Source of the DNA: a virus
Strand: one strand, 5' to 3'
Length of the DNA: 25,585 nt
IMG/VR virus record: IMGVR_UViG_3300035698_001097
Span: 1-25,585 of that record
This document shows, one piece after another, positions 4,986 through 25,585 of the stretch. Made by a program: the position numbers and the translations under genes. The notes under the pieces were generated by a model that was not told the DNA's origin, did not search any database, and worked only from the letters and a program-made list of their open reading frames with translations. Position 1 is the first letter of the stretch. Every line of letters starts with the position of its first letter.

Positions 4986-5384
4986 TTAGTAATGTCTATT
5001 ATCGTACACTGTTGAATTAGTAATATCTGTATATATGGCAGTTCGGAAAGCATTAATTATGTACTTTACTTGTACCCCACCATCTATATAAAATGGGGCA
5101 CCTGTAAACTTATCTTTATTAAGTAAGTACAATATCCACCAACTTTTAATATCTTCATAAATATTATATGAAAGTATTGATAAGGGAAGTTTGCTATTAG
5201 TAGTATAGTACTCAATATATTGACCATCAATTTCAGGAAACTCAATCTTCTTAAGAAGATTATAAACATAGAAGTCCTTATTGTCAAGGGATTCTTCGAA
5301 AATTTTGAAAATTCTTTCGTAATCCGTCAAATCAAGGGCGGAAAGTGAAAGAATCTCGTTTTGGTATTGACCTGTATCAATCAT
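4986..5384 (-). CDS. Baseplate wedge protein (T4 gp53-like, LysM-type core)
   Basis: The core segment LPLSILSYNIYEDIKSWWIL, followed by YLLNKDKFTGAPFYIDGGV, matches the gp53 pattern in which a short beta element, a helix ending in a paired aromatic and 'LLxxN' form a LysM-like fold at the hub-wedge contact. At 132 residues it is shorter than T4 gp53 (196), lacking most of the C-terminal helices. The first 8 nt overlap the end of the upstream GIY-YIG endonuclease gene. A TAAATA box 18 nt before the start lies inside that endonuclease frame. It sits directly before the gp27-like hub, consistent with a baseplate role. A generic LysM-containing tail protein is the alternative. Confidence 0.55.
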   Translation of the reverse strand: MIDTGQYQNEILSLSALDLTDYERIFKIFEESLDNKDFYVYNLLKKIEFPEIDGQYIEYYTTNSKLPLSILSYNIYEDIKSWWILYLLNKDKFTGAPFYIDGGVQVKYIINAFRTAIYTDITNSTVYDNRHY

Positions 5385-10388: not shown

Positions 10389-10978
10389 AATTGCTCATAA
10401 TTTTGACATGCAAAATTGATAGACTTTTCTTTGAAGTCTGTATTTCCATAATCCAACCTAAAAGATTCGATTGCAGTTGGAAATACCTTCGTGAATTTAA
10501 ACCCTTTCATCAATTGCCCCCCATTTGTGTATTGTCGAACTTCCATATCTCCTTTCAAGGATACGCCCTGTTCGATTAATCCTTTATGCTCAATCGCAAT
10601 TAACCATGGCCGAAAGAAGTTGTGCTCAATGTCCATCTCAGTCTCCAGAAAGTTGACAGAGACTCGGTCCAAGAAGTTTGTTCTTTTAACCATGGCATAT
10701 CCGGGAAGAAAACCTCCGGTGTTTTCCATTCCCAACGCCACAAACTCTGATTTCTCATTTGGCATTACTACTTCTCGGGCCACCAAAATATTTCCCCCTT
10801 TTGTCATATCAAATGGATTGATCTTGGCCTGCCATTTTTCACCCGCCTCACTCAAAACACTATTGATTGCCCCCTCAGTTACGCCATCGATTGTGACGCT
10901 CCACAATACAGGAAGGTGGAGGGCGAACTTCCGATCACTGGCAAAGGAAGAGAAAAACTGTGTAATACTTGGGTGCAT
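10385..10978 (-). CDS. Tail-tube-like protein (second tube-fold paralogue)
   Basis: This 197-residue soluble protein has the strand-rich layout of T4 gp19-type tube proteins. An N-terminal part (FALHLPVLWSVTIDG) is followed by an inserted region with VMPNEKSEFVALGMENTGGF, a helix-containing middle (FRPWLIAIEHKGLI), and a C-terminal sheet (GFKFTKVFPTAIESFRLDYG, ending KSINFACQNYEQL). 'F...V.PTAI..F.LDYG' is the characteristic closing segment of tube proteins. It lies downstream of the true tube gene. It could form a special ring at the tube end (initiator or terminator) or a baseplate component. A TAAATA box lies 6 nt before the ATG, preceded by an 11-bp hairpin. Confidence 0.6.
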   Translation of the reverse strand: MHPSITQFFSSFASDRKFALHLPVLWSVTIDGVTEGAINSVLSEAGEKWQAKINPFDMTKGGNILVAREVVMPNEKSEFVALGMENTGGFLPGYAMVKRTNFLDRVSVNFLETEMDIEHNFFRPWLIAIEHKGLIEQGVSLKGDMEVRQYTNGGQLMKGFKFTKVFPTAIESFRLDYGNTDFKEKSINFACQNYEQL

Positions 10979-10984
10979 CGATAA

Positions 10985-10990
10985 TATTTA
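10985..10990 (-). promoter_or_regulatory. CTAAATA late-promoter-like box
   Basis: 6 nt before the ATG at 10978, just downstream of the 11001-11031 hairpin. Confidence 0.6.
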
Positions 10991-11000
10991 GCTCGTATAG

Positions 11001-11031
11001 CCCATATCTCCAATACTTATGGAGATATGGG
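11001..11031. promoter_or_regulatory. 11-bp perfect hairpin between tail genes
   Basis: The arms 11001-11011 and 11021-11031 are perfectly complementary around a 9-nt loop. There is no T tract on either strand, so it is not a standard intrinsic terminator. On the - strand it follows the stop of the ORF at 11049 and precedes the TAAATA box of the tube-like gene. It may act in mRNA end formation or stability, or as an insulator between units. Confidence 0.7.
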
Positions 11032-11034
11032 AGA

Positions 11035-11055
11035 ATGTCAAGGATTACTTAGAGA
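11035..11055. repeat. 21-bp direct repeat, copy distal to the tube gene
   Basis: Identical to 11475-11495. On the - strand it contains the stop codon (11049-11051) of the unknown ORF. The two copies are 440 bp apart and frame that ORF. Confidence 0.95.
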
Positions 11056-11474
11056 TGATTATACAGATATCCCACCAATTTTACATCTGGACCACCACCA
11101 TTGTTACCAACCGTGTCCAATGCAATTTTCAATTTGTCTAAAGATATTTGTTTTGAGGCGTTTGGTCCCTGTATATTTACATTCTCTCCATCTATTGACA
11201 CTTGAACAGATATTCCCTTATTCTGTGTGAAATAATCCGTAATAACTTGTTGTAAATTATTATGGTCGTCAACTTTATCAGATAAATCAGTAGACACATG
11301 CTGTGTGATGTTATCTCCTCTTACATTTACCGGAATATCTGTTGTTGATGGGGACGGCCACATAGAAGCTGCGGCTAATCCAGCAGCACCCAGTCCAGCG
11401 GCTTTTGCTTTCCAGCCTTCTTCAATTGTATCATAATACAATTGTTCAATATTTTCAAAGTCTTTTGTGTTCAT
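11049..11474 (-). CDS. Unknown protein, 141 aa, bounded by direct repeats
   Basis: I do not recognise this protein. Residues 4-21 (KDFENIEQLYYDTIEEGW) form a predicted amphipathic helix ending near an I-x-E site. A short hydrophobic Ala/Gly stretch follows (AAGLGAAGLAAASMW), which could be a transmembrane or packing segment. The rest is polar and could alternate strands and helices (KGISVQVSIDGENVNIQGPN). The gene lies between the tube and the second tube-like gene, and 21-bp direct repeats mark both of its edges. It has no TAAATA box, unlike most genes starting a unit here; its start follows the tube stop by 10 nt. The setting suggests later insertion and a virion or assembly role. Confidence 0.7.
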   Translation of the reverse strand: MNTKDFENIEQLYYDTIEEGWKAKAAGLGAAGLAAASMWPSPSTTDIPVNVRGDNITQHVSTDLSDKVDDHNNLQQVITDYFTQNKGISVQVSIDGENVNIQGPNASKQISLDKLKIALDTVGNNGGGPDVKLVGYLYNHL

Positions 11475-11495
11475 ATGTCAAGGATTACTTAGAGA
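11475..11495. repeat. 21-bp direct repeat, copy at the tube gene stop
   Basis: Identical to 11035-11055. On the - strand it contains the last codons and TAA stop of the tube gene and ends exactly at the base before the ATG of the unknown ORF. Confidence 0.95.
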
Positions 11496-12051
11496 AATCT
11501 TCATACCAGTGGTATGAGAATGTAGTAGCAAGTTTCAGGATTTCTCCTGTGCCATCCGCAATTGCATACTCAACATTTGAAACATTACGAACACCAACCC
11601 CGACAAGTTTCAAAGACTTAATAATTTCAAATCCTTGTCCTCCTTGGTTGCCTTGTCCACAAGGAGCACCAAGAACATCAAGGATGATATAAGATTCGGG
11701 ACCGGGCATACACATTTGGCCAGTAGTTGTTTCATTATCGAATGCCGCTCTTGATGCTTGTTCCAATTTAGTTCTCAGATCCAGAGATTGGTCCATGTAA
11801 AACTCTATAGGCCAAGCCTCAGAACCGGGATAAGTAGATTTTCCATTCAAGTGAAATACTTGTCCGGAGTAATTTACAGTTTTATCTTCAATGTCTCTAC
11901 CGGGTAGAGTAGCAGTTCTAGCAAATACCAGGTCTGTTTCTCCATCCAGAGACATCCCTGCGACTTCGATTTGTTTGATCCTCATGAAAAAGTCCCGAGA
12001 GAACTGTTTTTGGGATGCGATGTTGAAAAAAGTATTGATTGTCGTGGGCAT
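11485..12051 (-). CDS. 19: Tail tube protein (T4 gp19-like)
   Basis: This protein forms the stacked rings of the inner tail tube. Its 188 residues compare with 163 in T4 gp19. The N-terminal strand and loop read FMRIKQIEVAGMSLDG, followed by RTATLPGRDIEDKTVNYSGQ, the 'PGR......V.Y.G' motif of the family. Then come the 'P......FY.D...DLR..LE' segment (AWPIEFYMDQSLDLRTKLEQ) and a C-terminal sheet (KLVGVGVRNVSNVEYAIADG, ending LATTFSYHWYEDF). It directly follows the sheath gene, as 19 follows 18 in T4. A TAAATA box lies 5 nt before the ATG. Confidence 0.8.
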   Translation of the reverse strand: MPTTINTFFNIASQKQFSRDFFMRIKQIEVAGMSLDGETDLVFARTATLPGRDIEDKTVNYSGQVFHLNGKSTYPGSEAWPIEFYMDQSLDLRTKLEQASRAAFDNETTTGQMCMPGPESYIILDVLGAPCGQGNQGGQGFEIIKSLKLVGVGVRNVSNVEYAIADGTGEILKLATTFSYHWYEDFSK

Positions 12052-12056
12052 ATAAT

Positions 12057-12062
12057 TATTTA
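12057..12062 (-). promoter_or_regulatory. CTAAATA late-promoter-like box
   Basis: 5 nt before the ATG of the tail tube gene at 12051. Confidence 0.6.
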
Positions 12063-12066
12063 GTTA

Positions 12067-14361
12067 TTAGACGAGTTCTTCGAAACTTGTTCCAGTTCTG
12101 ACCGCTGTAAATTGGACAATAATGAATTCCGCAGTTCTCGTTGGCTTCAGATAGATATCACACATCATTTCATTTGCGTCGATGACCTCATTTGAATTGT
12201 TCCTCTCATCGCAGACAATCAAGTAGTCATATAGCCCACCATTTTGTTTAGCATATTCGAAGATTGGAGTTAGAGTATTGACGAATCGGGTTCTTGTGAA
12301 CTCGTTATTCGGTTGAAAAACGAAGAAGATCGCAGCTTTTTTAGTTGGTCTTTCAAGAGCCAAGAAGAGTCTACGGACATTGATTCTATCAAATGCACTA
12401 GGTTTCTTGAGCAATGTTTTCTGACCAAAGATCGCCATTCCCTGTGATGGGGAGAAAAGAACAGGATTTATGTTACTCTTGTAGAGTTCATCCCGTTGTT
12501 TTTGATTTGGCGTGATTGCGATATCCAGAACATTTCCTTTGACTAATCCTCTGGTGTAACCAGCAGGAGCAGACCATGGGAATTCGGCAGCATCACTCTT
12601 AGCATATGCCGCCGCAGCAACAGGAGAGAATGGAACCCAGATCTTATCACCGAGGAAGTCTTCGTATATTTGTGCCCAGTTTGCATAAACTGCGCCATAG
12701 GAAGTGGTGGTGTTTGACATCTGATGTCTGATCGGCCAATAACCATATTGTTGGAAACTCTTAGATCTATCACCAAGAACTTTACTGTTCTTGCCAGTGA
12801 CCAAGATTTGTCTTAGAGGATCGGCAATGAACATGCAGTCTCCGCGACCACCAAGTAATTCACAGAAGTTTACGAACTTAGTTGCAACTGCATCATAATC
12901 ACCTCTAATGTCTGTTCCTGTGGAATCGAGGGCACTTGAAGTTTGCAGGGCAGAAATATTTGGCACCAGCGCAGTGTCATCATAGTAACTCAAGCTTAAT
13001 TGAGTCATGGATGTGTGGACTGTTCCAAGACCAGCTTCAACCACAAGGTCAATGTCATAGATTTCGTCATTGTTTACTGATTCCAGAGCACGTTCCACTT
13101 TAGTTGGGATCGATCCCAGAACTTTTTCAGAGAGAACGTTTGAAGAATATGTTCCAACAGGATACAAATTGTCCGACTCCGTTAAGATAGTCGCCATGTT
13201 TGTAAGGACAGCAGGAAGAATACCACTCTTAGACGATAGGCTAAGAGCATTTGTTGTTAGGAAGTTGGTCAACATGCGGACCTTACGAAGTGGCTCTCCA
13301 TCATCGTTGACTGAAGAATTTTGGTTCTTCTTAGAGACATATGGATTAACCATAACTTCAACATTTCGACTATTGGTATCTTGAGATTCCAAGAAGAATG
13401 ACACCGAAGGTCCACCAGTTGGATTCAATTGCTGTCTGTTAAAGTCCATGGCTCCAACAATACGATCCTCAAGGACATAATCCAATTTGAATGCGTCTGT
13501 GGCATAAAGACTCTTGCGAAGCTTAACAATACCAACACTAAGAACGTCATCATCTTCAGCCCCGTCGATATTGTAATCGGTGAGGTTTTCCAGAAGTTGA
13601 GAAACATTATTATAAGAGCCAGAAGCACCAGTCAAATTAAATTGTAGTGTTCCTTGTGGGATTGATGTGAAATCAACAGGAGTAGCACTTAGAGAATTAG
13701 TGCTAACCGTTTTCACCCCAATTACTGATTCATGGGCCGTTCCATAGTTAAGATTGGTGTTATCGGCAATACCAACATAATAACCTTCAAATTGGCTATT
13801 GATAGTTGTTTGAGATTTGTTTAGGACGATAAGTGCCGATTTTCCAAGATCTGTGATCGTTGGAATGGTTCCAAGAGCATTACCAGACAGGCTCCAAGTG
13901 AAAAGAGATCCTTCGAGAGCTTGTCTATACTGATCTTCAGTTAGAACAAATTGAGTAGGCGCACCAAGTAAGATCGTTCCTGCACTCAAAGTATCAAAAT
14001 TGGTTCCTGACAATGCTGTTACGGTGTCGTATGTTAAGGCAGGATACGCCAGAGCAGAATAATAAGAACCAAAACCAACACCAGAAGCCTCACCATATGG
14101 GAGTCTGGAAGTATAAATGCTGGCAGGAGATGTCAGCAATTCTTTGATGCCATAGTAGAAATATCTCTCTGCACTATTGGTTGGGGTGCCATAGACAGCC
14201 TCCAATTCATCATTGGTAGTGATTTTCAATACCTCATCTGTCGGCCCTTGGGGGGCGAAACCTGTGATGAACACATTTGTGCCCACCGAAGCTGGCGCAA
14301 TTAGAGAATAGTCCCGCTCTAAAATTTGAACTCCGGGAGATAAGATTGATCGTGTGGCCAT
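12067..14361 (-). CDS. 18: Contractile tail sheath protein (T4 gp18-like)
   Basis: The sheath polymerises around the tube and contracts to drive it through the host envelope. The start SILSPGVQILERDYSLIAPA carries the 'SPGV...E.D' signature. The next segment, VGTNVFITGFAPQGPTDEVL, is the usual first strand block. The closing block (EMMCDIYLKPTRTAEFIIVQ, then FTAVRTGTSFEELV) is the conserved C-terminal domain whose final strand links to neighbouring subunits. At 764 residues it is longer than T4 gp18 (659); the extra material is in the variable outer middle region. It lies upstream of the tube gene, and a TAAATA box is 6 nt before the ATG. Confidence 0.95.
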   Translation of the reverse strand: MATRSILSPGVQILERDYSLIAPASVGTNVFITGFAPQGPTDEVLKITTNDELEAVYGTPTNSAERYFYYGIKELLTSPASIYTSRLPYGEASGVGFGSYYSALAYPALTYDTVTALSGTNFDTLSAGTILLGAPTQFVLTEDQYRQALEGSLFTWSLSGNALGTIPTITDLGKSALIVLNKSQTTINSQFEGYYVGIADNTNLNYGTAHESVIGVKTVSTNSLSATPVDFTSIPQGTLQFNLTGASGSYNNVSQLLENLTDYNIDGAEDDDVLSVGIVKLRKSLYATDAFKLDYVLEDRIVGAMDFNRQQLNPTGGPSVSFFLESQDTNSRNVEVMVNPYVSKKNQNSSVNDDGEPLRKVRMLTNFLTTNALSLSSKSGILPAVLTNMATILTESDNLYPVGTYSSNVLSEKVLGSIPTKVERALESVNNDEIYDIDLVVEAGLGTVHTSMTQLSLSYYDDTALVPNISALQTSSALDSTGTDIRGDYDAVATKFVNFCELLGGRGDCMFIADPLRQILVTGKNSKVLGDRSKSFQQYGYWPIRHQMSNTTTSYGAVYANWAQIYEDFLGDKIWVPFSPVAAAAYAKSDAAEFPWSAPAGYTRGLVKGNVLDIAITPNQKQRDELYKSNINPVLFSPSQGMAIFGQKTLLKKPSAFDRINVRRLFLALERPTKKAAIFFVFQPNNEFTRTRFVNTLTPIFEYAKQNGGLYDYLIVCDERNNSNEVIDANEMMCDIYLKPTRTAEFIIVQFTAVRTGTSFEELV

Positions 14362-14419: not shown

Positions 14420-15106
14420 TCATTTAGGGGTATAATCTTTAATTTTTAGTATTGTGTGTAGAGGTAAGGAGTGTCTCGTTGATTTTTGTATATGTTTAAT
14501 CTCTTTAATTCCGTTTCGACGCAATGCTGATAATGTCTCTCTGTCTATTTTTAAAGTGTCGATACAATCTTGTATATTATTATAACGTATTTCGTATTCC
14601 TCTTGTATTGGTTCTAAAAATACAATAATAAATGGTCTGTTATATTTTTGCATTGTTGGAAGTTTTTGAAGGGCGGGCTTATCTAAAAATTTTAATGTTA
14701 TTTTAGAATTTTCTGAGAATTTATGCTTAGTATTTTTTCTAATTCGAGGAATTGTTAATTTCCCAGTCGTCTTTAAAATTTGGAGAAATTTCGAATTTAA
14801 ATTTGTCTTTATGTAACAGTCCTTTCTATGTTCACACAAAATGTTATATTTTCCATGTATAGGATCGTCTACACTCAATTCAAATGGGTCTCTGATAACC
14901 GCCAAATAATTTTTATATCGTTTATCATCATGGAACATGTCCTTTACTCTTTTTCCTTTTTTGTTACTTGGAAATGAATACCCCAAAGTTCCCTCCCCAC
15001 CACAGGTTAAATTTACTAAGGTTCCTTCTTTGGTATTTTTTCTACCATAAAGTTTTATGAATTCTTTTTCTTTTTCTTTTAATTCTAATATTGGGAGATT
15101 CTTCAT
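14420..15106 (-). CDS. GIY-YIG homing endonuclease, C-terminal part of a frameshifted gene
   Basis: The ORF from the ATG at 15106 encodes only the later part of the enzyme. Residues 14-45 read EFIKLYGRKN...GTLVNLTCGGEGTLG, the known end of GIY-YIG nuclease domains in this group ('E..FI..YGR....G.L.N.T.GGEG'). The remainder is a basic DNA-binding region with a C-terminal helix-turn-helix-like stretch (YNNIQDCIDTLKIDRETLSA). The GIY-YIG core itself lies upstream at 15107-15270 in the same frame but without a start codon. The gene is Lys-rich and AT-rich, unlike the sheath gene it precedes. As it stands it lacks a start for the catalytic part and may be inactive. Confidence 0.8.
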   Translation of the reverse strand: MKNLPILELKEKEKEFIKLYGRKNTKEGTLVNLTCGGEGTLGYSFPSNKKGKRVKDMFHDDKRYKNYLAVIRDPFELSVDDPIHGKYNILCEHRKDCYIKTNLNSKFLQILKTTGKLTIPRIRKNTKHKFSENSKITLKFLDKPALQKLPTMQKYNRPFIIVFLEPIQEEYEIRYNNIQDCIDTLKIDRETLSALRRNGIKEIKHIQKSTRHSLPLHTILKIKDYTPK

Positions 15107-15481: not shown

Positions 15482-16060
15482 TCAAGACTCATTCAGAATC
15501 TCAACATGAAGCTGACTATATACAAAAGTAAATCCACTTAAGATTTCTTCCCCTGCTTCCCCTTTTTGGTTATAGGTAATACCCTTAACTGAAGTTGGAA
15601 ATGCCTTGTGATAAGTGAACTTTATTCTTTTCTTTAAAAACTCATCAAGACCATATAGAGTCAGATCTGTCATATAATCATTAAACTCCGCATCCACCGC
15701 ATTATTGTGCTGGTTATATACTCCAGTCTTTTGGTCGTGTAGGAGATTCAACCATTGATACATGACATAGTAATTATTATACATTGAGTCCACCATGAAC
15801 TCAATTTCAACTGGTGGATACGAATCCTTCGAATGACTGGACACATATAGAGTAGACCCAGCGAATCGTGTTTCCGTGGCCTTTACTGTGATTTCTGGCA
15901 CAGCGGTTCCAAATACAGAGAATTGAACACTATCTGGTTGAATAGTCTTTTGAGTTCTCTCAAATTTCCGCGTGATATCCTTGCGGATCGGAGGAACATC
16001 GAAGACGAGCAGAAACTTGTCTTCGCGAGCTTTGTTTAAAAATGACTGGACGATTTCCAT
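15482..16060 (-). CDS. Tail-tube-like protein (third tube-fold paralogue)
   Basis: This 192-residue protein has the tube-protein pattern: PDSVQFSVFGTAVPEITVKA, then ETRFAGSTLYV, then PPVEIEFMVDSMYNNYYVMY, and a closing sheet (KFTYHKAFPTSVKGITYNQK, then LSGFTFVYSQLHVEIL). 'F.V...W', 'HKAFPTSV' and the final 'FTF.YSQL' are the elements seen in gp19-like proteins. It lies between the large terminase and the sheath, where T4 has no gene between 17 and 18. It may be a tail-terminator or other tube-end ring protein. A TAAATA box, overlapping the intergenic space after the terminase TAA, is 5 nt before the ATG. Confidence 0.6.
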   Translation of the reverse strand: MEIVQSFLNKAREDKFLLVFDVPPIRKDITRKFERTQKTIQPDSVQFSVFGTAVPEITVKATETRFAGSTLYVSSHSKDSYPPVEIEFMVDSMYNNYYVMYQWLNLLHDQKTGVYNQHNNAVDAEFNDYMTDLTLYGLDEFLKKRIKFTYHKAFPTSVKGITYNQKGEAGEEILSGFTFVYSQLHVEILNES

Positions 16061-16065
16061 ATTCT

Positions 16066-16071
16066 TATTTA
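16066..16071 (-). promoter_or_regulatory. TAAATA late-promoter-like box
   Basis: 5 nt before the ATG of the tube-like gene at 16060, directly after the terminase stop. Confidence 0.6.
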
Positions 16072-16072
16072 A

Positions 16073-17857
16073 TTATGTGAACCACTTGTCAAGAAGATCG
16101 TAATTCTGTTGTGTCATCGTCCGAGATGGATCAATGTATGGATCGTCTCCCCCTAAGAAAACCCAACCCTCTTCTTTTAAAGATGCTACTTCTTCTAAGT
16201 CGCCATCTCCCATAGATCCAAAGGACATTGGATTCAACATCGATTGCTCGATTCTTTCCACTTGTTCATTTGTATAGATCGAAGTCGGATTTTCAAAATA
16301 GGCAATCCCATAATCGATTGGGGTGATACGGAGAGGTTTTCCACACTCGTCGGTCTCTTCAATGGTGAACCATTCCTCTGCCAATTCTGTATCGAGAACC
16401 TTCAAGGCCCAAACCATTGCCATTGTCCTATCATCGTGTTTTCCCGATGCCGCCTTCCAGGTGTCATTGACCTTTACAAAGTCTTTGAACACTTCTTCTA
16501 AGGAATGTTCATTCCTAAAAACAACAGATCCCGTATCATTATAAAAGTATCGAGCATTTGCACACGCATTGTACTTAGTGTTTCTCGATGATACCATACC
16601 CTCAAGTTGTTGATTTTTTCTACCCGCCATCTTAGCTCCCCACGATACAATCTTCGGATACGCGTAATCGCGGGATAATCTATCAACCACCTGTCCACCT
16701 TGATTATTTCTCTCAATCGAAAGCACTGGATTTCCCCAGTGTCTCATGATATCATATACAATATTTGAAAACTCTGCCACGGGAGTCGTATTATCATAAT
16801 ACTCTGCAACCTCTATGATTTCTCTTAGATCTGTTGCATCGAATATCTTAATGACTGAATGGTCGCCCCCCACACCGTCTCCAACGTCAACACCCGCAAT
16901 ATATAATTTATCGGCATCTGGATACTCCCAAATATTATATTTCCCATCCATCAGAGTTTCAATTGGGGCGTGTGTCAATTTTTTAAGTTCCCTATAGAGA
17001 TTTTCATTTAGGGATGACGTTCCAGTGTTTATAAACTCGCAGTCGTACTCCTGAGCAAACTTTTCAGCGGACGCCAACCCTGCGCGGATTTTATCAGCCC
17101 ATTCTTCAGTTCTTCCGGGGATCTCATGCCAAAGAATCCTATCATGTGCCCACCCATTTTTTCCTTCAACTGCTCCAGTATATGTAGTATGGAATAGATT
17201 ACCCGTTCCGTTTGGAGTAGAACACATAAAAACTTTTGAATCATCAGAAGCAGAAACAATTGGAAAAACGGATGCCCAGAACGGATCTAATAAATGTTCT
17301 TCGACGAATGCACATTCGTCAATGACCAAACATGATACGGCTTGTCCCCGTGCCGCAGTTCCCGTAGTTGTTGAGATTGATATTCTAGATCCATTTTCTA
17401 AATCCATACTAGTTTTACCATACGATTCACTCACAGGAGATTTCAACCAGTTTGGAAGTAACTCGTATGCCATTCTAATTCGACTAAAAATTTCAATTGC
17501 GGTCGCTTCTTTATTTGCAACTAGCAATATCCGCTCATCCCCAAAAAATATAGCAAGCCATAAAAGATAAATGGTCATTAAAGTTGACTTGCCCACTTGG
17601 CGACTTGCAAGTAGGACAAAGAATCTATCATTTATCATTTTATCTAATATTCGAATTTGTGGGTCATATAGTTTAATTAACTCCTTTCCCTTTCCCGGTC
17701 GTAATATTGTAAAATAGTTCTCGGAGAAATAATGTATATCCTCCCTACACTTAGTAATTTCCGACAGCATCTCTTCTGTGTACTCGAACTCTGCCCCCTT
17801 AGATGGAACATTTGGATTTCCCATATAGAAATTATCCTTTTTACGTTTCGCAGCCAT
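16073..17857 (-). CDS. terL: Terminase large subunit (T4 gp17-like)
   Basis: This is the ATP-driven motor and nuclease that packages DNA into the prohead. With the start at 17857 the protein has 594 residues, against 610 in T4 gp17. Residues 84-92 are the Walker A loop (ASRQVGKST), 176-181 the Walker B (CLVIDE), and STPNGTGN near 213-220 is the coupling motif. The RNase H-type nuclease has Asp324 in AGVDVGDGVGGDHS, Glu382 in SIERNN, and Asp475/Asp476 in GKHDDRT. A longer frame opens at 17932, but it would overlap the divergent + gene. The perfect TATAAATA 8 nt before the ATG at 17857 favours the shorter form. Confidence 0.95.
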   Translation of the reverse strand: MAAKRKKDNFYMGNPNVPSKGAEFEYTEEMLSEITKCREDIHYFSENYFTILRPGKGKELIKLYDPQIRILDKMINDRFFVLLASRQVGKSTLMTIYLLWLAIFFGDERILLVANKEATAIEIFSRIRMAYELLPNWLKSPVSESYGKTSMDLENGSRISISTTTGTAARGQAVSCLVIDECAFVEEHLLDPFWASVFPIVSASDDSKVFMCSTPNGTGNLFHTTYTGAVEGKNGWAHDRILWHEIPGRTEEWADKIRAGLASAEKFAQEYDCEFINTGTSSLNENLYRELKKLTHAPIETLMDGKYNIWEYPDADKLYIAGVDVGDGVGGDHSVIKIFDATDLREIIEVAEYYDNTTPVAEFSNIVYDIMRHWGNPVLSIERNNQGGQVVDRLSRDYAYPKIVSWGAKMAGRKNQQLEGMVSSRNTKYNACANARYFYNDTGSVVFRNEHSLEEVFKDFVKVNDTWKAASGKHDDRTMAMVWALKVLDTELAEEWFTIEETDECGKPLRITPIDYGIAYFENPTSIYTNEQVERIEQSMLNPMSFGSMGDGDLEEVASLKEEGWVFLGGDDPYIDPSRTMTQQNYDLLDKWFT

Positions 17858-17865
17858 ATGTAACA

Positions 17866-17873
17866 TATTTATA
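17866..17873 (-). promoter_or_regulatory. Perfect T4 late promoter TATAAATA
   Basis: Exact match to the T4 late consensus, 8 nt before the preferred terminase start at 17857. Confidence 0.8.
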
Positions 17874-17884
17874 CACGTTACAGT

Positions 17885-17890
17885 TAAATA
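17885..17890 (+). promoter_or_regulatory. TAAATA late-promoter-like box
   Basis: 7 nt before the ATG at 17898; divergent from the terminase promoter, 11 bp away. Confidence 0.6.
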
Positions 17891-17897
17891 AGAATAT

Positions 17898-18848
17898 ATG
17901 AAAACACCAGACCGCGTTTGTATTGGGGACATCTATGGGAAGATGCTCAATTCTATTAAACCCCAATTGGTCAAAGAAGCCAAGAAACAACCCCCGAATG
18001 CTTTCAACTCTAAAATGCCCATTGAGAAATCGAAACCGATTGATGGGTATAATAGAGCGTTAAATGATTCTGAAAATGATGAAAATTCGGAGGAGGACGA
18101 ACAGGACGCATCGGCCCCAAAAACTAAAAGGGGCAAGACCATGGAAAATCTCTTAAAAAAATCCAAAAACAAGAAGTTTAGTAGCCAGCAACGAGCAGGA
18201 TTCAAAAAAGAGGCAGAGAAAAGAGGTTTTTATTCTGAGGGAGAGGAAGATTTGAAAGAATCGAAAAAAACACACACCGATACGATAAATAAAGTTATGA
18301 GCAAATCAACGTTCGATAAATTATATAGTAAGGTCTTAAAAGAAAACTTCGGACAGGAAGATCCAGATATGGACGCTCTTGGTTTGGATGACGCCACGGC
18401 AGATTCCGATATGGAAGGTGACTACGGGGCGGAAGATGATATGGGAGAAGAGGGCGACGAAGTTACCTTTACTCTTGACCGCGCAACTGCACAGGTGTTA
18501 ATGGACGTTCTCCAAGGTGCTATGGGAGAAGAAGGCGAAGGGGGAGACGAAGACCTTGACTTTGGAGACGAAGGAGAAGATCTTGGACTCGATGACGATG
18601 ACGGTAGCTTTAACTTCGACGAAGATGAAGAAGAACAAGGAACCAAACCTGCCACTGATAAAAAAGGGGCCTTCCAAGTAAAGAATAACAAGGTTGGGGG
18701 CAGAGCCAATCCAAAAGGTTCCAAAATGGGAAGCGGTGATGTGACGGACGACACGGGAACCAAAGAAGGTGCCCCTCCAATCACACAACTTCAAGGCAAA
18801 GACAATAAGGTTAAAGGCCAAGTTAATGCTGGTGACTTCTTCAAGTGA
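17898..18848 (+). CDS. Highly acidic protein, prohead-core or scaffold candidate
   Basis: The 316-residue protein is Lys-rich in its first 130 residues and extremely acidic afterwards (GDYGAEDDMGEEGDE, and then EEGEGGDEDLDFGDEGEDLG and LDDDDGSFNFDEDEEE). Between the two lies SKSTFDKLYSKVLKENFGQE, an amphipathic helix followed by an L-x-E site of the type cut by the T4 prohead protease. The C-terminus has two related segments, KNNKVGGRANP and KDNKVKGQVNAG. T4-like prohead core proteins are similarly acidic and are processed in the prohead, so a core role is plausible but unproven. It is divergent from the large terminase, has a TAAATA box 7 nt before the ATG, and is followed by a strong terminator. 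Confidence 0.75.
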   Translation: MKTPDRVCIGDIYGKMLNSIKPQLVKEAKKQPPNAFNSKMPIEKSKPIDGYNRALNDSENDENSEEDEQDASAPKTKRGKTMENLLKKSKNKKFSSQQRAGFKKEAEKRGFYSEGEEDLKESKKTHTDTINKVMSKSTFDKLYSKVLKENFGQEDPDMDALGLDDATADSDMEGDYGAEDDMGEEGDEVTFTLDRATAQVLMDVLQGAMGEEGEGGDEDLDFGDEGEDLGLDDDDGSFNFDEDEEEQGTKPATDKKGAFQVKNNKVGGRANPKGSKMGSGDVTDDTGTKEGAPPITQLQGKDNKVKGQVNAGDFFK

Positions 18849-18869
18849 TCTGACCAAATAACAAATTTG

Positions 18870-18900
18870 AAAAACCCGCTATTAATTTAGCGGGTTTTTT
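18870..18900 (+). terminator. Rho-independent terminator
   Basis: A 12-bp perfect stem (18870-18881 with 18888-18899) with a GC-rich core, CCCGC/GCGGG, a 6-nt loop and a run of six T at 18895-18900. It lies 22 bp after the acidic-protein gene. An A run on the other arm would allow function in reverse. It is the only canonical terminator seen in the window. Confidence 0.9.
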
Positions 18901-18903
18901 CGT

Positions 18904-18909
18904 TAAATA
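18904..18909 (+). promoter_or_regulatory. TAAATA late-promoter-like box
   Basis: 6 nt before the GTG at 18916, immediately after the terminator; supports the GTG start. Confidence 0.6.
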
Positions 18910-18915
18910 GTTATA

Positions 18916-19266
18916 GTGAAAAGCTTCCAACAATTTTTCTTAGAATATCGACACAACCTTGCGGATGGCTCAACGGCTCCCTCAATCTATGTCAATAATG
19001 GTAAAAACCCAGATCGTATTGGGCCTGATAAAAAAAGACTACACACAGTGGGAGACTATGAAAAGAAGAACGACAAGCTCGATATTCCCGGATCATTATT
19101 GACATACCCAGAATTGGAAGAGATGGGGCTAAAGGATCTCATGAGCGTTCAATTACCTCGGACATTCCAAAACATTAAAAACTCGGGCGCAAATATCCAA
19201 GTTTGGCAGAATGATAGAGGAGAAATCGTCGGAAGAGTGATCAGACATAGCAAGCCGGATAAATAA
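18916..19266 (+). CDS. Candidate internal head protein with T4-type capsid-targeting N-terminus
   Basis: This 116-residue protein starts MKSFQQFFLEY, closely resembling the capsid-targeting peptide of the T4 internal proteins (MKTYQEFIAEA), which sends them into the prohead core and is cut after an [LI]-x-E site. Here the equivalent is FLE. The remaining body is basic and polar (NGKNPDRIGPDKKRLHTVGD), ends in VWQNDRGEIVGRVIRHSKPD, and has no membrane segment. The start is GTG, supported by a TAAATA box 6 nt upstream. It lies between the acidic core candidate and the gp14-like neck gene, a head-gene setting. The body fold is unknown to me. Confidence 0.65.
   Translation: MKSFQQFFLEYRHNLADGSTAPSIYVNNGKNPDRIGPDKKRLHTVGDYEKKNDKLDIPGSLLTYPELEEMGLKDLMSVQLPRTFQNIKNSGANIQVWQNDRGEIVGRVIRHSKPDK
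19260..19265 (+). promoter_or_regulatory. ATAAATA late-promoter-like box
   Basis: 5 nt before the ATG at 19271; overlaps the stop codon of the preceding gene. Confidence 0.55.
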
Positions 19267-19270
19267 GAAT

Positions 19271-20065
19271 ATGGGCTGCCCTGTAACACCACTGTCTTGT
19301 CTGGAACCTTCAAATATCTTTGCGGGCGTCTACAACCCTAAATGTGGGGGATTCGCAGATCCGTCCAATTATCAAGCAGAACAAGCCATCTTTAAATCTG
19401 GGTTCAACGAACTGATCAATAATTATGGCGTTGAAGTTGATTATTATATCAATGGGTTCAATACATCCGAAATGAACTTCATATATGGGGAACACACAAC
19501 CCAAGAATATTCATCCCCATTCACAATTAAAATGTATCTCGAATTGGAAGAAGGTATCAGTCTCAGCCAATTCGGTATTTCCAGTGATGATGAACTCACA
19601 GCATATGTGAGTATTGATAACTTCGCAACAACGGTCAATTTGTCGGCAGATGCTTTGGTAGCTTTTTATTCCACAAATAATCAGAGAATCGAGCCAAAAT
19701 CTGATGATCTCATTGAAGTTACCGCTCTAGGATGTGACAGACCAGGTGATAGAGGGGCTAAAATATTTCGCATCACAGAAGCATTAGATCAAAGCACAGG
19801 AGACGGCTTGAATCCCCTGATGGGCCATTATGTGTGGAGACTCAAGGCGAAACGCTACGAGACTTCCTTTGAAACCAATGCGCCTCAAGAAGATGGAAAT
19901 GACCAAGTGTATGATAATACATATAGTGGAAAACTTTCCTCTGTATTATTCCCAACCCTCTCAACTGATGAGAAGGTATATGACGACAATGCGGACGATG
20001 TTAGTCAAGCATCAGTGTATGACATGGATAATACTGATAATAGCGTCTATGGTGATTACTATTAA
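19271..20065 (+). CDS. Neck / head completion protein (T4 gp14-like)
   Basis: The 264 residues compare with 256 in T4 gp14, which closes the filled head and joins it to the tail. The pattern follows T4-like gp14: an opening helix (EQAIFKSGFNELINNYGVEV) with DYYINGF, then FIYGEHTTQEYSSPFTIKMY and LELEEGISLSQFGISSDDEL, then 'PKSDDLIEVT', then a 'IFRITEALD' strand, and HYVWRLKAKRYETSFE. 'Q...F...I..YG..V.Y', 'PF.I.MY.E..EG', 'FG' and 'W.L...RYE.S.E' are the shared elements. The last 60 residues are acidic. It starts 5 nt after a TAAATA box, and its stop codon overlaps that of the convergent tailspike gene. Confidence 0.65.
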   Translation: MGCPVTPLSCLEPSNIFAGVYNPKCGGFADPSNYQAEQAIFKSGFNELINNYGVEVDYYINGFNTSEMNFIYGEHTTQEYSSPFTIKMYLELEEGISLSQFGISSDDELTAYVSIDNFATTVNLSADALVAFYSTNNQRIEPKSDDLIEVTALGCDRPGDRGAKIFRITEALDQSTGDGLNPLMGHYVWRLKAKRYETSFETNAPQEDGNDQVYDNTYSGKLSSVLFPTLSTDEKVYDDNADDVSQASVYDMDNTDNSVYGDYY

Positions 20066-21348
20066 CCAATCAACCACGTTGATCCCGTATAATAAATAGG
20101 AACAACATTTGCGCCTCCTGTCACATAGGGCGTTCCATATCCAGCAGATAAAGGTTGGTTAGAATCGGAAGTAAACACTTTCATTCCCGCGTAAGCTGAT
20201 AATGATGTCAAACTGGTCACATTGTATATATTATAAACCGCCAAATTAGGATCAGTCGTATTAACATAATATCCCGTGGGGGAAGTATAATCTACTTGAC
20301 GAACATATTGAGTGACAGAGCTAACAGTAGACCCAGCCGCAGATTGCATTCCATTAGATGATTTACCCGTGTTAATATCTTCAATTATAACTCCCTCGTT
20401 CGCTCCCCTAACAATATTAGTTGCATTAACACTTGCACCGTTATTATTAATTCTGATCACAGATGCTCCCGCACTAAGAGAATACCCCTCGACACTATCA
20501 AGTGTTATATTTGGAGGTGAACCACCTCCCCCCGTAGAGCTTTCATAACCATACCAATTATATACTACGTCAATGCCTACCACATTTGCGGTCTCCATAT
20601 GAATATTTCTCATTACGGCACATCGACCACCAACTCTTGCGATATATTGGCAATTAGTTGAGCCCGATATTGCATTAAGAGTGGCTCTAGAAAGTTCCCA
20701 AGTAGTTCCTACCGCCATCCAACAAATAGGAACCCCATCACTTGACGCAAACATATTAATGCCATCTGCCGTAAACCCATTGAAGATTGTCATACGACTA
20801 CCCCCAAAACCATATCCAGTAAATCCCGTTCCAGAAACATTAACCAGTCGAGTATTTTCTTCAAGAGAACCCTCATGATAAATAGATGAAAACTCAACTC
20901 CCACTGTAGGAGTAATAGCCCATGAATCTATAGATAAATTTTGGAGGGACTGATTATATTGATTTGTGAGTGTTTGTTTCGCCCCCGCATCCACCCTATT
21001 ATATTCCATGATGCCCATGAAAATAGCGGCAGTAGTTCCGCCCCCAGTATAAGGATAATCTGGGGGGAATGAACGATGAACGTCTAAGTCCCAATGAGCA
21101 GAATCTACACAAGTGATTACAACCTGACCACTAGGATAAGTGATTCCCGGTTGTCCCATCAAACTCGACCGATACCCTCTCAAATCAATTGGTCTGTCGA
21201 TGTAATAATCTTTTTGACTGAGATATACTACACTGTTTGAAATTCCTCTTGGGATATATCGACCACTATAAAGCACCCAATATGTTTCCCAGTTTACTCC
21301 AACTCCGGGAGTATCATCTGTAGTAGAAGTATGCCCCCAGAAATACAT
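20062..21348 (-). CDS. Tailspike, C-terminal part (beta-helix), downstream of a G5 frameshift
   Basis: The listed ATG at 21348 is probably not a real start; this frame continues the adaptor frame at 21294-21974 after a shift at the G5 run 21334-21338. The first residues (GHTSTTDDTPGVGVNWETYW) are the second half of a small carbohydrate-binding-like insert ('Y.C...HTS......G..W..YW'). The rest is rich in Asn, Gly, Ser and Thr with repeated short strands, as in right-handed beta-helix spikes (RNIHMETANVVGIDVVYNWY). The end (VPIYYTGSTWLIG) is a typical spike tip. It probably binds or degrades surface polysaccharide. Joined to the upstream frame the protein would have about 637 residues. Confidence 0.7.
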   Translation of the reverse strand: MYFWGHTSTTDDTPGVGVNWETYWVLYSGRYIPRGISNSVVYLSQKDYYIDRPIDLRGYRSSLMGQPGITYPSGQVVITCVDSAHWDLDVHRSFPPDYPYTGGGTTAAIFMGIMEYNRVDAGAKQTLTNQYNQSLQNLSIDSWAITPTVGVEFSSIYHEGSLEENTRLVNVSGTGFTGYGFGGSRMTIFNGFTADGINMFASSDGVPICWMAVGTTWELSRATLNAISGSTNCQYIARVGGRCAVMRNIHMETANVVGIDVVYNWYGYESSTGGGGSPPNITLDSVEGYSLSAGASVIRINNNGASVNATNIVRGANEGVIIEDINTGKSSNGMQSAAGSTVSSVTQYVRQVDYTSPTGYYVNTTDPNLAVYNIYNVTSLTSLSAYAGMKVFTSDSNQPLSAGYGTPYVTGGANVVPIYYTGSTWLIG

Positions 21349-21974
21349 TGATATGAAGATCCCTCATAAAACAACCTATATCCTTTTATATAAGCGTTGC
21401 CAGTATCCCAAATGTCAATACCATAAAAACTTCCCGCTGTGGCGCTGAGATCGTGTGTAGTCGTTAATGAACACTCAATAGCAGATTGAATACCAAGCCA
21501 ATCCGCAGAAGCATTTGCCTCAACATCACCAAACCCGCCCCACCACTCAGGGTGACGGTAAACGCCACCAAGAGTCCCAATGACCTGGGCCGGTGCAGTG
21601 ACAACAAAAATCTGCTGTTCTGGGTGCGCATCAAGATAACCATAACAAGTCCAAATAAAAGCCCCCATCGTGACCCTACCATCTGGCCCAACAATTATAT
21701 TCGAGGTGGTTGGGGTGGTTCTGTCTGCTGTAAGGGTAATATGAGAATTAATATAAAGAGTAGACTCATCAAGTTCTAACAATCCGTCAGAAGTCACTGT
21801 AATTGCAGAAGCTGAGACAACCCCTACAGCGGAGGTTGCGATGATTCTAGACCCGACATTGTTCGACTCAGTTCTTGACAATATCCCATTATCAGTAATC
21901 AATAAATATTCAGAACCATCTATATTAGATGTAATAGGTAAATCGTTTGCGTATACGACAGATGTAATGGCCAT
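21294..21974 (-). CDS. Tailspike, N-terminal part with virion-attachment module
   Basis: The first 35 residues (MAITSVVYANDLPITSNIDG, then TDNGILSRT) match the start of the adaptor at 25048-25491, so this is the shared attachment module that docks the spike to the tail. Further on, HPEWWGGFGDVEANASADWL followed by GIQSAIECSL is the 'PEW.G..GD......D...IQ.A+' motif that opens many tailspike beta-helices. The protein then enters a carbohydrate-binding-like insert (YEGSSYQCISG), shifts out of frame at five G residues and ends in GILLLQMILPELE, an unlikely natural ending. One added G, or two removed, restores 'SG(G)HTSTTDDTPG' and joins it to the next ORF. A TAAATA box lies 5 nt before the ATG. 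Confidence 0.75.
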   Translation of the reverse strand: MAITSVVYANDLPITSNIDGSEYLLITDNGILSRTESNNVGSRIIATSAVGVVSASAITVTSDGLLELDESTLYINSHITLTADRTTPTTSNIIVGPDGRVTMGAFIWTCYGYLDAHPEQQIFVVTAPAQVIGTLGGVYRHPEWWGGFGDVEANASADWLGIQSAIECSLTTTHDLSATAGSFYGIDIWDTGNAYIKGYRLFYEGSSYQCISGGILLLQMILPELE

Positions 21975-22044
21975 AATCTTATTTAATAAGACTTAGCGAC
22001 TGATACAAAGTATCGATCAAAATATTTTCAAATATTCCATTCCT
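21871..22044. repeat. 174-bp imperfect direct repeat, left border of the large spike cassette
   Basis: Aligns without gaps to 25388-25561; by hand count 138 of 174 positions match. It covers the end of the small peptide frame, the TAAATA box and about 35 codons of the adaptor module. Confidence 0.85.
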
Positions 22045-22062
22045 ACCATTAACCCAATTCAT
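21979..22062 (-). CDS. Small conserved peptide frame (27 aa) at the cassette border
   Basis: The frame reads MNWVNGRNGIFENILIDTLY and then QSLSLIK before TAA. Its start overlaps the last 14 nt of the 1000-aa spike in another frame. The same peptide (RNGIFEN, then DTLYQSLSLIK) occurs before the other adaptor at 25496-25585, and most differences between the two DNA copies within it are silent or conservative. It could be a small protein, or the displaced C-terminus of the upstream spike gene. There is no TAAATA box or clear ribosome site of its own. Confidence 0.35.
   Translation of the reverse strand: MNWVNGRNGIFENILIDTLYQSLSLIK
21980..21985 (-). promoter_or_regulatory. TAAATA late-promoter-like box
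   Basis: 5 nt before the ATG at 21974; it coincides with the last codon and stop of the 27-aa frame. Confidence 0.55.
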
Positions 22063-25051
22063 TGTGATTCCCGTATTTAAACTCTGCCCAATCTGCACTA
22101 CCATAGATAGCATATGCAGATAATGTTGCAGGAATATTCTCCCATGATCCATCTGCGATAAGTCCTATATTAGAGGTATCTATATTCTGGAATCCTTGAG
22201 CCAACACTGGAGAATCTCCGGCGACCTGATACGTCGCAAAATCCAATTTAGGATCTGTGAATATAGTTCCCTCTTCCCATGGGGCCATAGTTTCAAATCC
22301 TGCTGATACTTGAATAACCGTGGAGTCATTTGCCCAGTCGTGGAGAGTCGCAAAACTATTAATCCCATCTCCATACGCAACACCATCAATATCTAATCTC
22401 TGGGCAGCACATGCTAAAAAGGCATCTTCATTAGATGATAATAGATGAGAGTCTGTGACTCCGGTTAAGGTAGTATAATAACAGTTCCTATTAGATGAAT
22501 AAAATGGTACACTTCTCTTGAAGGTGTCGGTTGGAGTTATTACTGGATATGGTTTATTTGCTTCTAAATACGCGCCTCCAACATTTATAATCCAACTATC
22601 AGATGGGACTTTCCAAGGATAAGGATACCCAGAAGCACCAGCATTAGATGATACCAATATGGAGGATGTCAACATATTACTAAACCCATAAACCCAACTA
22701 CCGTCTCTAACAAAGAATTTTTTGAGCATTTGGGCACTCGTATATATTGGATACCCCTCATTGGCCCCTCCCCGAATAAAATAAAATGAACTATTCCACC
22801 CAGGTATACTTCCCGCAGAATACGCATATGTGATTTTTGCAATTCCTTTGTATTCATCATCTGATGCATTTAAATTTGAATGAATAATTCTACTCGTATG
22901 CATTGAGCTGGAATCTGCTACCATTGCGGGGGCAATGGTAGATCCGAGTTCTGGATATAGGAGCGGTGTGATCCCCGATGTCGCATACCAAATATTATTC
23001 CAAGCAGACATTCCCCAAAAATTAGTATTTGGTCTGACTCTGTCCGTGACATTATTACGCCGATAATTAAATTGAGTTCTTTGGGATTCTCTAGTGCTAT
23101 ATATCTGCCCATAAGAGTTTAGAAATATATTATTCCAAACTTTATGATTGGCCATGTCATTACTGATAAGTGTACTACCGGCCCCATCAATAATATTATT
23201 ATACCACTCTCCCCAATTTCCTTGTTGCTCTATATACAACCCATTACCATTAGATAATCCAGGTGTCTGTCTAGCATATTTTATAATATTATCGTGGACT
23301 CTGGCTCTTTCCGGGTCCGTCAACCCATTAAACCAATATGGGGCAACCCCAAAACCATAATACACTGATGCCATGTCATTACTATAGCCATATCCACAAT
23401 TAGATACATAATTGCCAGATATTTGATCAAACATAGAAAAATTTAAATGGAGAGTGCTATACCCGGAATATCTAATATGATTATTTTTTATAATATTATG
23501 AATACAATATTTTGTCCCTCTATAATCTTCTCCCCGCACATATTCAATATCATCTCCCGGTTGAGGCGCATCATATCCTCCCGCTGGGGTCCAAGGATCT
23601 TTTATTTTAAAAGTGTAATATGGAGAACTCTGTAATGTGTCAACACATAATCGTTGTTGCCCTGATAATGCGCCCGTTTTAATTTCAACGTACCCGGAAA
23701 AGTTATCTTCAAATATACTCCCCACCCTTGGAACCACCATTGATCCGACTGAAAGAGAGAATGTGGTTGAAGTTGCGCTGATAATTGGAGTAGCCACCAT
23801 TGACACATTTGAGTAGTTTAACCCCTCAATATGAAGTCCACACGCCGTCTCCTCAGTTATATTACCCAACCCACTATACATTATAATATTATTATAAAAT
23901 GAACAGTCAGATAGTAGGTGACCATTTACCCCATATCCAGAATGGTCAAACACTATGTTCTTATAAAAATTAACATTTGTGGTCCTACAAAGAATAATCC
24001 CATTAACATTCTTCTCAATTCTACATCCAGAAAAAGACGCCGATCTACAATAGTCTTGAACTTTTAAACCATATCCATAATTTTTAATTCCAATGTCATA
24101 TACATGGACATTTTCAGCTCCATCTATTGTCAATCCCGTCTGAGTAGAGGTCAATAACTTAAACTCTGTAGATGTTCCCATGTGTGGTTTTATGTATATG
24201 TATCTTGTGCCATTTTCCAGACTCATCACATACTCCCCAGCCTTTGTACAGAAATTGTGAGCATCTGCGGACATATTCTGGAAATAACTATAACGTCGAC
24301 TGAATGGAATGATACTAATTCCTTTATTCTGTGCTGCCAAATTAGTATCATGAAAAATAAATGTAAAGGAATTGGGGGCGGTATATCGAAATGCTGATAG
24401 TGTATAAAAACCTATCGAACCGGTAAAATCTCCCCCCAGGGCAACTCTCGGGTTAGATGTTGTAATAGATGTATCTATATAACTTGTCAATGCCCGACAA
24501 AAAGTTGTATGATCTTTAATTGTGACCGCCGTTTTACCATCAATTGTAGATCGAGCACCCGCAAGATAAAATGCGCCCTCTTTTGGAAATCTGGCGGGAA
24601 ATATTCGAGAATCATCCAAAAACATTTGTCTTTCGTCTGTCCATAATGAATATGTTGTTTTTGGATATTCCACTTTCACCAATCCATTGGTTGTTATTGT
24701 CAACTCCGAAGATTTATAATAGTCCCCCTCAAGAGTAACGTCCCCATCTCCATACTTTTCAATGTATAAATTACCATCATTTAAATTATTATCATCATAA
24801 TCAAATGACAGAGGTTGGTCCACATATGATCCCGCCTTTAAAATTAAGTGTCGTGCCTTTTCCGGAGATGTTTTAATTTTAGTTAGGATCTCGGTAGCAT
24901 TAGACAAGGTTTTAGTGGGTAGATTGGGAGTATATCCCAGATATCCATCTTTACCGGAAGGAGAAGCGTATACAGTGGTTCTATCCGAATACTGTCTGGC
25001 ATTCGGCCCATTGATATCAACTAACGACGCGCGTATTCCCGGTGTAATCAT
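22049..25051 (-). CDS. Large beta-helix tailspike, probable polysaccharide-active receptor-binding protein
   Basis: The 1000-residue protein opens with VYASPSGKDGYLGYTPNLPT followed by KTLSNA, the '+.SPSG.D...G.....P.KTL' entry of the pectate-lyase-like superfamily. Residues from about 300 to 420 show stacked short turns typical of a right-handed beta-helix (VYDIGIKNYGYGLKVQDYCR, SGCRIEKNVNGIILCRTTNV, NFYKNIVFDHSGYGVNGHLL). Later parts are rich in Asn and aromatics. It is likely trimeric and surface-exposed, binding or cleaving capsule or O-antigen; a catalytic residue cannot be assigned. It has no attachment module of its own and its ATG overlaps the adaptor stop (ATGA), so the adaptor probably mounts it. 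Confidence 0.8.
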   Translation of the reverse strand: MITPGIRASLVDINGPNARQYSDRTTVYASPSGKDGYLGYTPNLPTKTLSNATEILTKIKTSPEKARHLILKAGSYVDQPLSFDYDDNNLNDGNLYIEKYGDGDVTLEGDYYKSSELTITTNGLVKVEYPKTTYSLWTDERQMFLDDSRIFPARFPKEGAFYLAGARSTIDGKTAVTIKDHTTFCRALTSYIDTSITTSNPRVALGGDFTGSIGFYTLSAFRYTAPNSFTFIFHDTNLAAQNKGISIIPFSRRYSYFQNMSADAHNFCTKAGEYVMSLENGTRYIYIKPHMGTSTEFKLLTSTQTGLTIDGAENVHVYDIGIKNYGYGLKVQDYCRSASFSGCRIEKNVNGIILCRTTNVNFYKNIVFDHSGYGVNGHLLSDCSFYNNIIMYSGLGNITEETACGLHIEGLNYSNVSMVATPIISATSTTFSLSVGSMVVPRVGSIFEDNFSGYVEIKTGALSGQQRLCVDTLQSSPYYTFKIKDPWTPAGGYDAPQPGDDIEYVRGEDYRGTKYCIHNIIKNNHIRYSGYSTLHLNFSMFDQISGNYVSNCGYGYSNDMASVYYGFGVAPYWFNGLTDPERARVHDNIIKYARQTPGLSNGNGLYIEQQGNWGEWYNNIIDGAGSTLISNDMANHKVWNNIFLNSYGQIYSTRESQRTQFNYRRNNVTDRVRPNTNFWGMSAWNNIWYATSGITPLLYPELGSTIAPAMVADSSSMHTSRIIHSNLNASDDEYKGIAKITYAYSAGSIPGWNSSFYFIRGGANEGYPIYTSAQMLKKFFVRDGSWVYGFSNMLTSSILVSSNAGASGYPYPWKVPSDSWIINVGGAYLEANKPYPVITPTDTFKRSVPFYSSNRNCYYTTLTGVTDSHLLSSNEDAFLACAAQRLDIDGVAYGDGINSFATLHDWANDSTVIQVSAGFETMAPWEEGTIFTDPKLDFATYQVAGDSPVLAQGFQNIDTSNIGLIADGSWENIPATLSAYAIYGSADWAEFKYGNHNELG

Positions 25052-25491
25052 TGTAGTAATCCGCTAAGTAAAAAAGCATCTTCGGATGTTCGTATAATTG
25101 AGGCCATTGCCCCCGGACCCGCAGTTATAAATAAGTCCCCATATGCCACCAAACTGGCAGAATATGCGGGACTCGGCCTCACTTCAACAGTTCCAGTGCT
25201 TAATTGCGCAACCGATGTATTAAATCCCGCAACGTCAAGCGCATTTGTGATATAAGCAGTAATAGCGGAAACTCCCGTGTATGTCAACATTGCTCCGCTA
25301 TCAGAAGATGCTATAGTATAATCAGATGTTATCTCCACGGTGGACAGCCGATAACCAATAGATGTCTGCCCAATATCTACCGCCAACGTTCTGGATAATA
25401 TTCCATTGTCAATGGTTATTACATAATCAGAACTTCCTATAAAAGATGCGATAGGGAGGTCGTTTGCGTATATAACAGATGTGATAGCCAT
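25048..25491 (-). CDS. Tailspike adaptor / attachment protein, 147 aa
   Basis: The start MAITSVIYANDLPIASFIGS, followed by DNGILSRT, is homologous to the N-terminus of the other spike at 21294-21974. Here the module is a separate small protein that continues with strand-rich, Thr/Ser/Ala-rich sequence and a typical fibre-domain ending (DLFITAGPGAMASIIRTSED, then AFLLSGLLQ). The stop overlaps the start of the 1000-aa spike by 4 nt, so equal production by coupled translation is likely. A TAAATA box lies 5 nt before the ATG. Role: joining the separate spike to the baseplate or neck. The attachment-module call rests on the shared N-terminus. Confidence 0.75.
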   Translation of the reverse strand: MAITSVIYANDLPIASFIGSSDYVITIDNGILSRTLAVDIGQTSIGYRLSTVEITSDYTIASSDSGAMLTYTGVSAITAYITNALDVAGFNTSVAQLSTGTVEVRPSPAYSASLVAYGDLFITAGPGAMASIIRTSEDAFLLSGLLQ

Positions 25492-25561
25492 AATGTTATT
25501 TAATGAGACTCAGCGATTGATAGAGGGTATCGAGTATAATATTTTCAAATATTCCATTTCT
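25388..25561. repeat. 174-bp imperfect direct repeat, right border of the large spike cassette
   Basis: Partner of 21871-22044, offset by 3517 bp. Same content: C-terminal peptide, TAAATA box, adaptor N-terminus. Confidence 0.85.
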
Positions 25562-25585
25562 GCTACTCAGATCTTCTTGCGTCGC
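25496..25585 (-). CDS. 3' end of a gene running off the window, same C-terminal peptide
   Basis: The frame is open to the window edge and ends SSRNGIFENIILDTLYQSLS, then LIK and TAA. It matches the 27-aa frame at 21979-22062. It is either the C-terminus of another spike-region gene or a second copy of the small peptide gene. Only 29 codons are visible. Confidence 0.5.
   Translation of the reverse strand, partial: ATQEDLSSRNGIFENIILDTLYQSLSLIK
25497..25502 (-). promoter_or_regulatory. TAAATA late-promoter-like box
   Basis: 5 nt before the ATG at 25491, in the same relative position as the box at 21980-21985. Confidence 0.55.

Follow-up and report, generated by a model that had tools for sequence, protein, structure and literature searches.

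The viral DNA analysed here, a stretch of 25,585 nt (IMG/VR record IMGVR_UViG_3300035698_001097, positions 1 to 25,585; termed the window), probably contains a site for receptor-binding cargo, where cassettes are exchanged through crossovers in core genes and where one of two repeated borders, border 1, is the scar of an added second cassette. The proposed site is that of an uncultured T4-like myovirus, and its cargo would lie between a putative baseplate gene and the convergent gene for head closure protein Hc2 (Table 1).

A repeat search found a single family of direct repeats, two copies of 174 bp that are identical at 138 positions (79%) without gaps, as had been predicted (E 7.8e-40 for copy 2 against copy 1 in a DNA search). 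The distance from start to start is 3517 nt. Exact matches between the two copies reach at most 21 nt, which makes a chimeric assembly through the repeat unlikely. All genes around the borders are on the minus strand. Read in the coding direction, each border consists of 21 codons of a C-terminal peptide, RNGIFENI(L/I)(I/L)DTLYQSLSLIK, a stop codon, a TAAATA box that overlaps the stop, and the N-terminal part of an adaptor, some 34 codons long, which begins MAITSV(V/I)YANDLPI.

Table 1. Features of the cargo site in the window, and cassettes found at the same site in relatives (positions are those of the window unless a locus is named)
Feature	Position	Strand	Remarks
Head closure gene Hc2	19271..20065	+	phrog_679, E 9e-12; other flank of cargo site
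Second ORF, cassette 2	20062..21348	-	428 aa, apparent rest of second spike; 4-nt overlap between its end and that of convergent Hc2
First ORF, cassette 2	21294..21974	-	226 aa; adaptor N-terminus and apparent spike start, ends in first half of CBM5/12-like domain
Run of five G	21334..21338	-	reading frame of cassette 2 interrupted here; weak CBM5/12 match spans break
Border copy 1	21871..22044	.	direct repeat
Mini-ORF MNWVNGRNGIFENILIDTLYQSLSLIK	21979..22062	-	27 aa, second copy of baseplate C-terminal peptide; overlaps spike stop by 14 nt
TAAATA box, border 1	21980..21985	-	11 nt before second adaptor start
Putative spike, cassette 1	22049..25051	-	1000 aa, right-handed beta-helix; ATGA overlap of its start with adaptor stop
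Adaptor, cassette 1	25048..25491	-	147 aa; weak tail fibre match phrog_16053, residues 49-142
Border copy 2	25388..25561	.	direct repeat
Putative baseplate gene, 3′ end	25496..25585	-	C-terminal 29 codons and stop; continues on contig IMGVR_UViG_3300035698_001790
TAAATA box, border 2	25497..25502	-	11 nt before adaptor start
L037 cassette	cargo 10783-11718		244 + 312 aa; chymotrypsin-like cargo
L040 cassette	cargo 10783-12426		149 + 548 aa; chymotrypsin-like cargo
L047 cassette	cargo 10774-11592		169 + 286 aa; chymotrypsin-like cargo
L052 cassette			215 + 107 + 586 aa; beta-helix
L045 cassette			202 + 976 aa; F5/8C
L118 cassette			925 + 240 aa + long chitobiase-like spike; end appears to continue into L049, same sample
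L032 fusion	cargo 10774-11640		baseplate protein fused to chymotrypsin-like (protease-like) domain just after peptide

The original prediction placed the same three elements at both borders, and they are indeed found there, but three details have to be changed. The spike that stops at border 1 does so in another frame and does not end in the peptide, which is encoded there by a separate ORF of 27 codons. The ORF that starts at border 1 looks like part of an interrupted spike, and the name adaptor fits border 2 better. Finally, the TAAATA box, which had been listed as a promoter belonging to the borders, is a genome-wide start-site motif: at a distance of 11–13 nt it precedes 12 of the window's 23 main gene starts, it also precedes several starts on the adjoining contig, and it is therefore not a border element. 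Starts with this box have no evident Shine-Dalgarno sequence; the box resembles a T4-type late promoter and is so close to the start that transcripts would be nearly leaderless.

The 3.5-kb interior between the borders holds what was predicted, i.e. the rest of the adaptor and the long ORF with its beta-helix match. On the other side of border 1, the two ORFs of cassette 2 look like one spike whose frame is broken at the run of five G; sequencing error, decay and phase variation are candidate causes of this break. The two adaptors of the window are alike over about 34 codons (24/34 aa) and unrelated thereafter, and the spikes share nothing past the adaptor start. Direct searches of viral contigs and phage records gave no relatives of the adaptors or of the 1000-aa spike, and comparison by sequence of this spike and of the L040 cargo with solved structures gave nothing useful. 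Domain matches in the cargo of the various loci are to Beta_helix, F5/8C, CHB_HEX_C_1 and, weakly, CBM5/12. Folds and position suggest that the cargo consists of receptor-binding spikes.

The gene upstream of border 2 was predicted to run past the window, and this is the case. A degenerate-DNA scan of viral contigs for the border peptide retrieved one other record (L003/G001), the end of which overlaps the right end of the window by exactly 101 bp. The complete gene (L003 5190-7427) is found there directly behind those of gp25 and gp6; it encodes 745 aa with an N-terminal PKD domain and ends in the border peptide. Baseplate protein is a name given from this position. No identification was drawn from a structural model, which has a mean pLDDT of 61, a low-confidence C-terminal third and generic Ig-like multidomain matches. 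Because the overlap is exact and both contigs together are collinear with the relative G002 (clamp loader, gp25, gp6, baseplate gene, Hc2, terminase), they very probably represent adjacent parts of a single genome. It had been suggested that more cassettes might follow on the right. The adjoining contig has no third repeat and its baseplate gene is an ordinary single-copy gene, by which a third cassette on this side is rejected. Homologues of the baseplate protein keep the border peptide with or without a cassette behind them, and baseplate function thus accounts for conservation of the peptide. The profile score of the mini-ORF peptide is 46.3 bits, compared with 62.4 for the true C-terminus.

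Relatives were collected by scans with Hc2 and baseplate alignments, which yielded about 150 loci, many of them from the same contigs. The content of the site varies between zero, one and two cassettes. In 13 populations of the close group the site is empty and the baseplate gene and the convergent Hc2 gene abut, while six populations carry a single unrelated cassette of adaptor and cargo (beta-helix, chymotrypsin-like, F5/8C or chitobiase-like) and one has the L032 fusion. Among about 20 populations, two cassettes are found in the window only. A profile scan of all fetched loci gave no second copy of the border peptide outside the window, and no relative was found there that has both cassettes of the window or just one of them. 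Farther relatives have, behind the baseplate gene, a tail protein mostly of 840–900 aa and no cassette. When occupancy is placed on a tree of the baseplate protein built without the border columns, it requires seven changes, compared with a mean of 6.7 for shuffled labels, and the starred branches force at least four. Since this is no fewer than for shuffled labels, cassettes were gained and lost repeatedly. Variable spike content, which the original prediction called for, is thus found scattered over the tree.

The chymotrypsin-like cargo represents an unusual type. A model of the L037 cargo (mean pLDDT 50, low confidence) matches chymotrypsin-fold proteases, with a best E of 2e-6 and 625 matches below 0.001. 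A DSG motif, in most cases GDSG, is common to the cargo of L037, L039, L040 and L047 and to the L032 fusion. The position of the histidine differs among these proteins, so that some may be inactive. The presence of chymotrypsin-like cargo in place of beta-helix spikes suggests that the surface met by some members of the group may be of protein and not of sugar.

The best evidence for exchange comes from one pair of loci, L040 and L052. These are 98–100% identical per 100-nt block from position 13532 of L040 to about 17132-17232, a stretch that spans gp6 and, from its start, ~515 codons of the baseplate gene. Identity then falls abruptly to ~75–86% over the last ~640 nt of this gene. The adaptor starts are ~88% identical and alike for 29 codons, after which the cassettes are unrelated, and homology returns at the Hc2 stop codon, with 93–97% in the last 400 nt of Hc2. 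A second sample gave an identical assembly of the L040 sequence (L041). At the level of sequence, this comparison shows an exchanged unit made up of the 3′ third of the baseplate gene, the adaptor and the spike, bounded by crossovers in core genes on either side: one ~640 bp inside the baseplate gene, the other at or inside the 3′ part of Hc2. The two genomes also differ at other places, and this is therefore ordinary phage mosaicism in which the spike site is one variable place. It had been proposed that homologous recombination moves whole spikes by way of the borders; whole-spike exchange is what is seen here, but the crossovers lie in core genes.

In the most probable scheme, cassettes of adaptor and spike are gained, lost and substituted for one another when related phages undergo homologous recombination. 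Since the crossovers fall in core genes on either side, a cassette would bring the 3′ end of its baseplate gene with it, as in the pair L040 and L052. For the window, the scheme supposes that a second cassette was added and the first not replaced, and that 21 C-terminal codons from a baseplate gene stayed behind as a scar before the inner cassette; scar and adaptor N-terminus together would constitute the repeat. As 3′ ends of the baseplate gene travel with cassettes, addition instead of replacement would be expected to leave a remnant of this gene ahead of the second cassette. With the scar, the inner spike would have retained an upstream stop codon, TAAATA box and start context, and both spikes of the window could then be expressed. 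The repeats are best read as products of exchange and not as a dedicated switch.

The two copies of the border peptide bear on the origin of the scar. They have 10 nucleotide differences, none at second codon positions and most at third positions, and these result in two conservative amino acid changes where 6.6 are expected (P 0.0008). The small number of changes argues for two baseplate C-termini that were both in use while they diverged and that met recently. The copies are nearest to each other (47/57 nt, compared with at most 41/57 to any relative), and the donor would thus be a near relative or a member of the same lineage.

Closeness of the two borders and their tandem arrangement in one genome are also what an old tandem duplication within the genome would give, in which the last 21 codons of the baseplate gene, the adaptor and the spike were copied and the spikes later diverged or were replaced. 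The adaptor N-termini are specifically alike (24/34 aa), which fits duplication within the lineage too and is a point against the exchange scheme. However, a non-functional remnant of the baseplate gene should gather amino acid changes, whereas the peptide differs almost only synonymously, and the spikes have nothing in common beyond the adaptor start. Duplication is therefore rather unlikely.

Perhaps the 27-aa mini-ORF is itself translated and under selection, as a free baseplate C-terminal helix that serves as an extra docking point or as a chaperone for the second spike. Its amino acids are conserved between the copies, its start codon overlaps the spike stop as in coupled translation, and a C-terminal helix is predicted with low confidence. 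But the mini-ORF is unique to the window genome, and recent arrival explains the conservation equally well. This reading is improbable, although it can hold together with addition of a cassette by exchange. It is similarly a long shot that a duplicated docking peptide lets the phage carry two spikes, and that borders of peptide and adaptor are a way to add spikes and not to replace them.

The host-range switching system of the original prediction, in which the two borders recombine within the genome and thereby delete, duplicate or swap the enclosed spike, is highly improbable: a whole spike is indeed flanked by direct repeats, and the neighbouring contig, with its overlap of 101 bp, ends exactly at a border, as expected where an assembly branches between strains, but shared runs of at most 21 nt at 79% identity are a poor substrate for homologous recombination, a second border occurs in one of about 20 populations, the crossovers of the observed exchange are in the baseplate gene and near Hc2, and inverted repeats of at least 40 nt, sought at the borders within the window, are absent. 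An invertible segment of the Mu G type is rejected on the last ground.

The phage has a T4-type large terminase, a sheath, and gp25- and gp6-like wedge proteins, and its contractile tail and baseplate region resemble those of T4. The terminase, however, is only ~30% identical to that of T4; its best cultured matches are cyanophages and Sinorhizobium phages (30–33%). No relatives of the PKD baseplate protein, Hc2, adaptor or spike are detectable among 50,697 phage records.

Exchange of host-recognition parts is a known process in phages; what is new is its occurrence in this group and the unusual cargo. For Ackermannviridae it has been proposed that entire tsp genes are exchanged when homologous recombination takes place in flanking genes and in the conserved N-termini (PMC8432352), and exchange of spike genes was shown in engineered phages, which underwent recombination and spike loss after a fifth spike was added (PMC11414711). 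The tsp cluster of kuttervirus S117 and CBA120 is similar in having conserved spike N-termini and variable C-terminal parts, and here too a shared N-terminal attachment segment precedes unrelated C-terminal parts, both in the window adaptors and in those of L040 and L052, with different spikes at the same site on near-identical backbones in the latter pair. By contrast, the site described here can be empty, adaptor and spike are often separate genes, cargo includes chymotrypsin-like proteins, and transfer of a cassette includes the 3′ end of the baseplate gene. A tblastn search of phage records with either window spike gave no match to known Ackermannviridae tail spikes. Modular receptor-binding proteins of Klebsiella phages likewise combine an N-terminal attachment module with an exchangeable specificity module (PMC8262889); compared with this arrangement of anchor and depolymerase, exchange here involves whole adaptor-spike operons beside a baseplate gene.

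The site thus provides a natural example of whole-spike exchange among uncultured environmental phages, in which the 3′ end of the upstream baseplate gene belongs to what is exchanged. The site, which holds zero, one or two spikes, offers a way to locate receptor-binding genes in metagenomic data.

Several other features were observed. At the very end of the contig is a perfect inverted repeat of 71 bp (window 1-186; spacer 44 nt), which is probably an assembly artefact. In G002, the terminase gene (L016 7531-11476, equal to G002 contig 15531-19476) is split by intein- or endonuclease-like insertions, and a 568-aa protein beside Hc2 contains eight tandem 63-nt repeats (L015 10493-11185). By eye, homing-endonuclease-like ORFs are found between structural genes of the window at 5377-6096 (GIY-YIG type) and 14420-15106. 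Also by eye, the window has a dTDP-glucose dehydratase-like gene (1258-2238) and the adjoining contig has dTDP-sugar reductase-like and thymidylyltransferase-like genes (L013 12054-13867); together these suggest a phage-encoded dTDP-sugar pathway.
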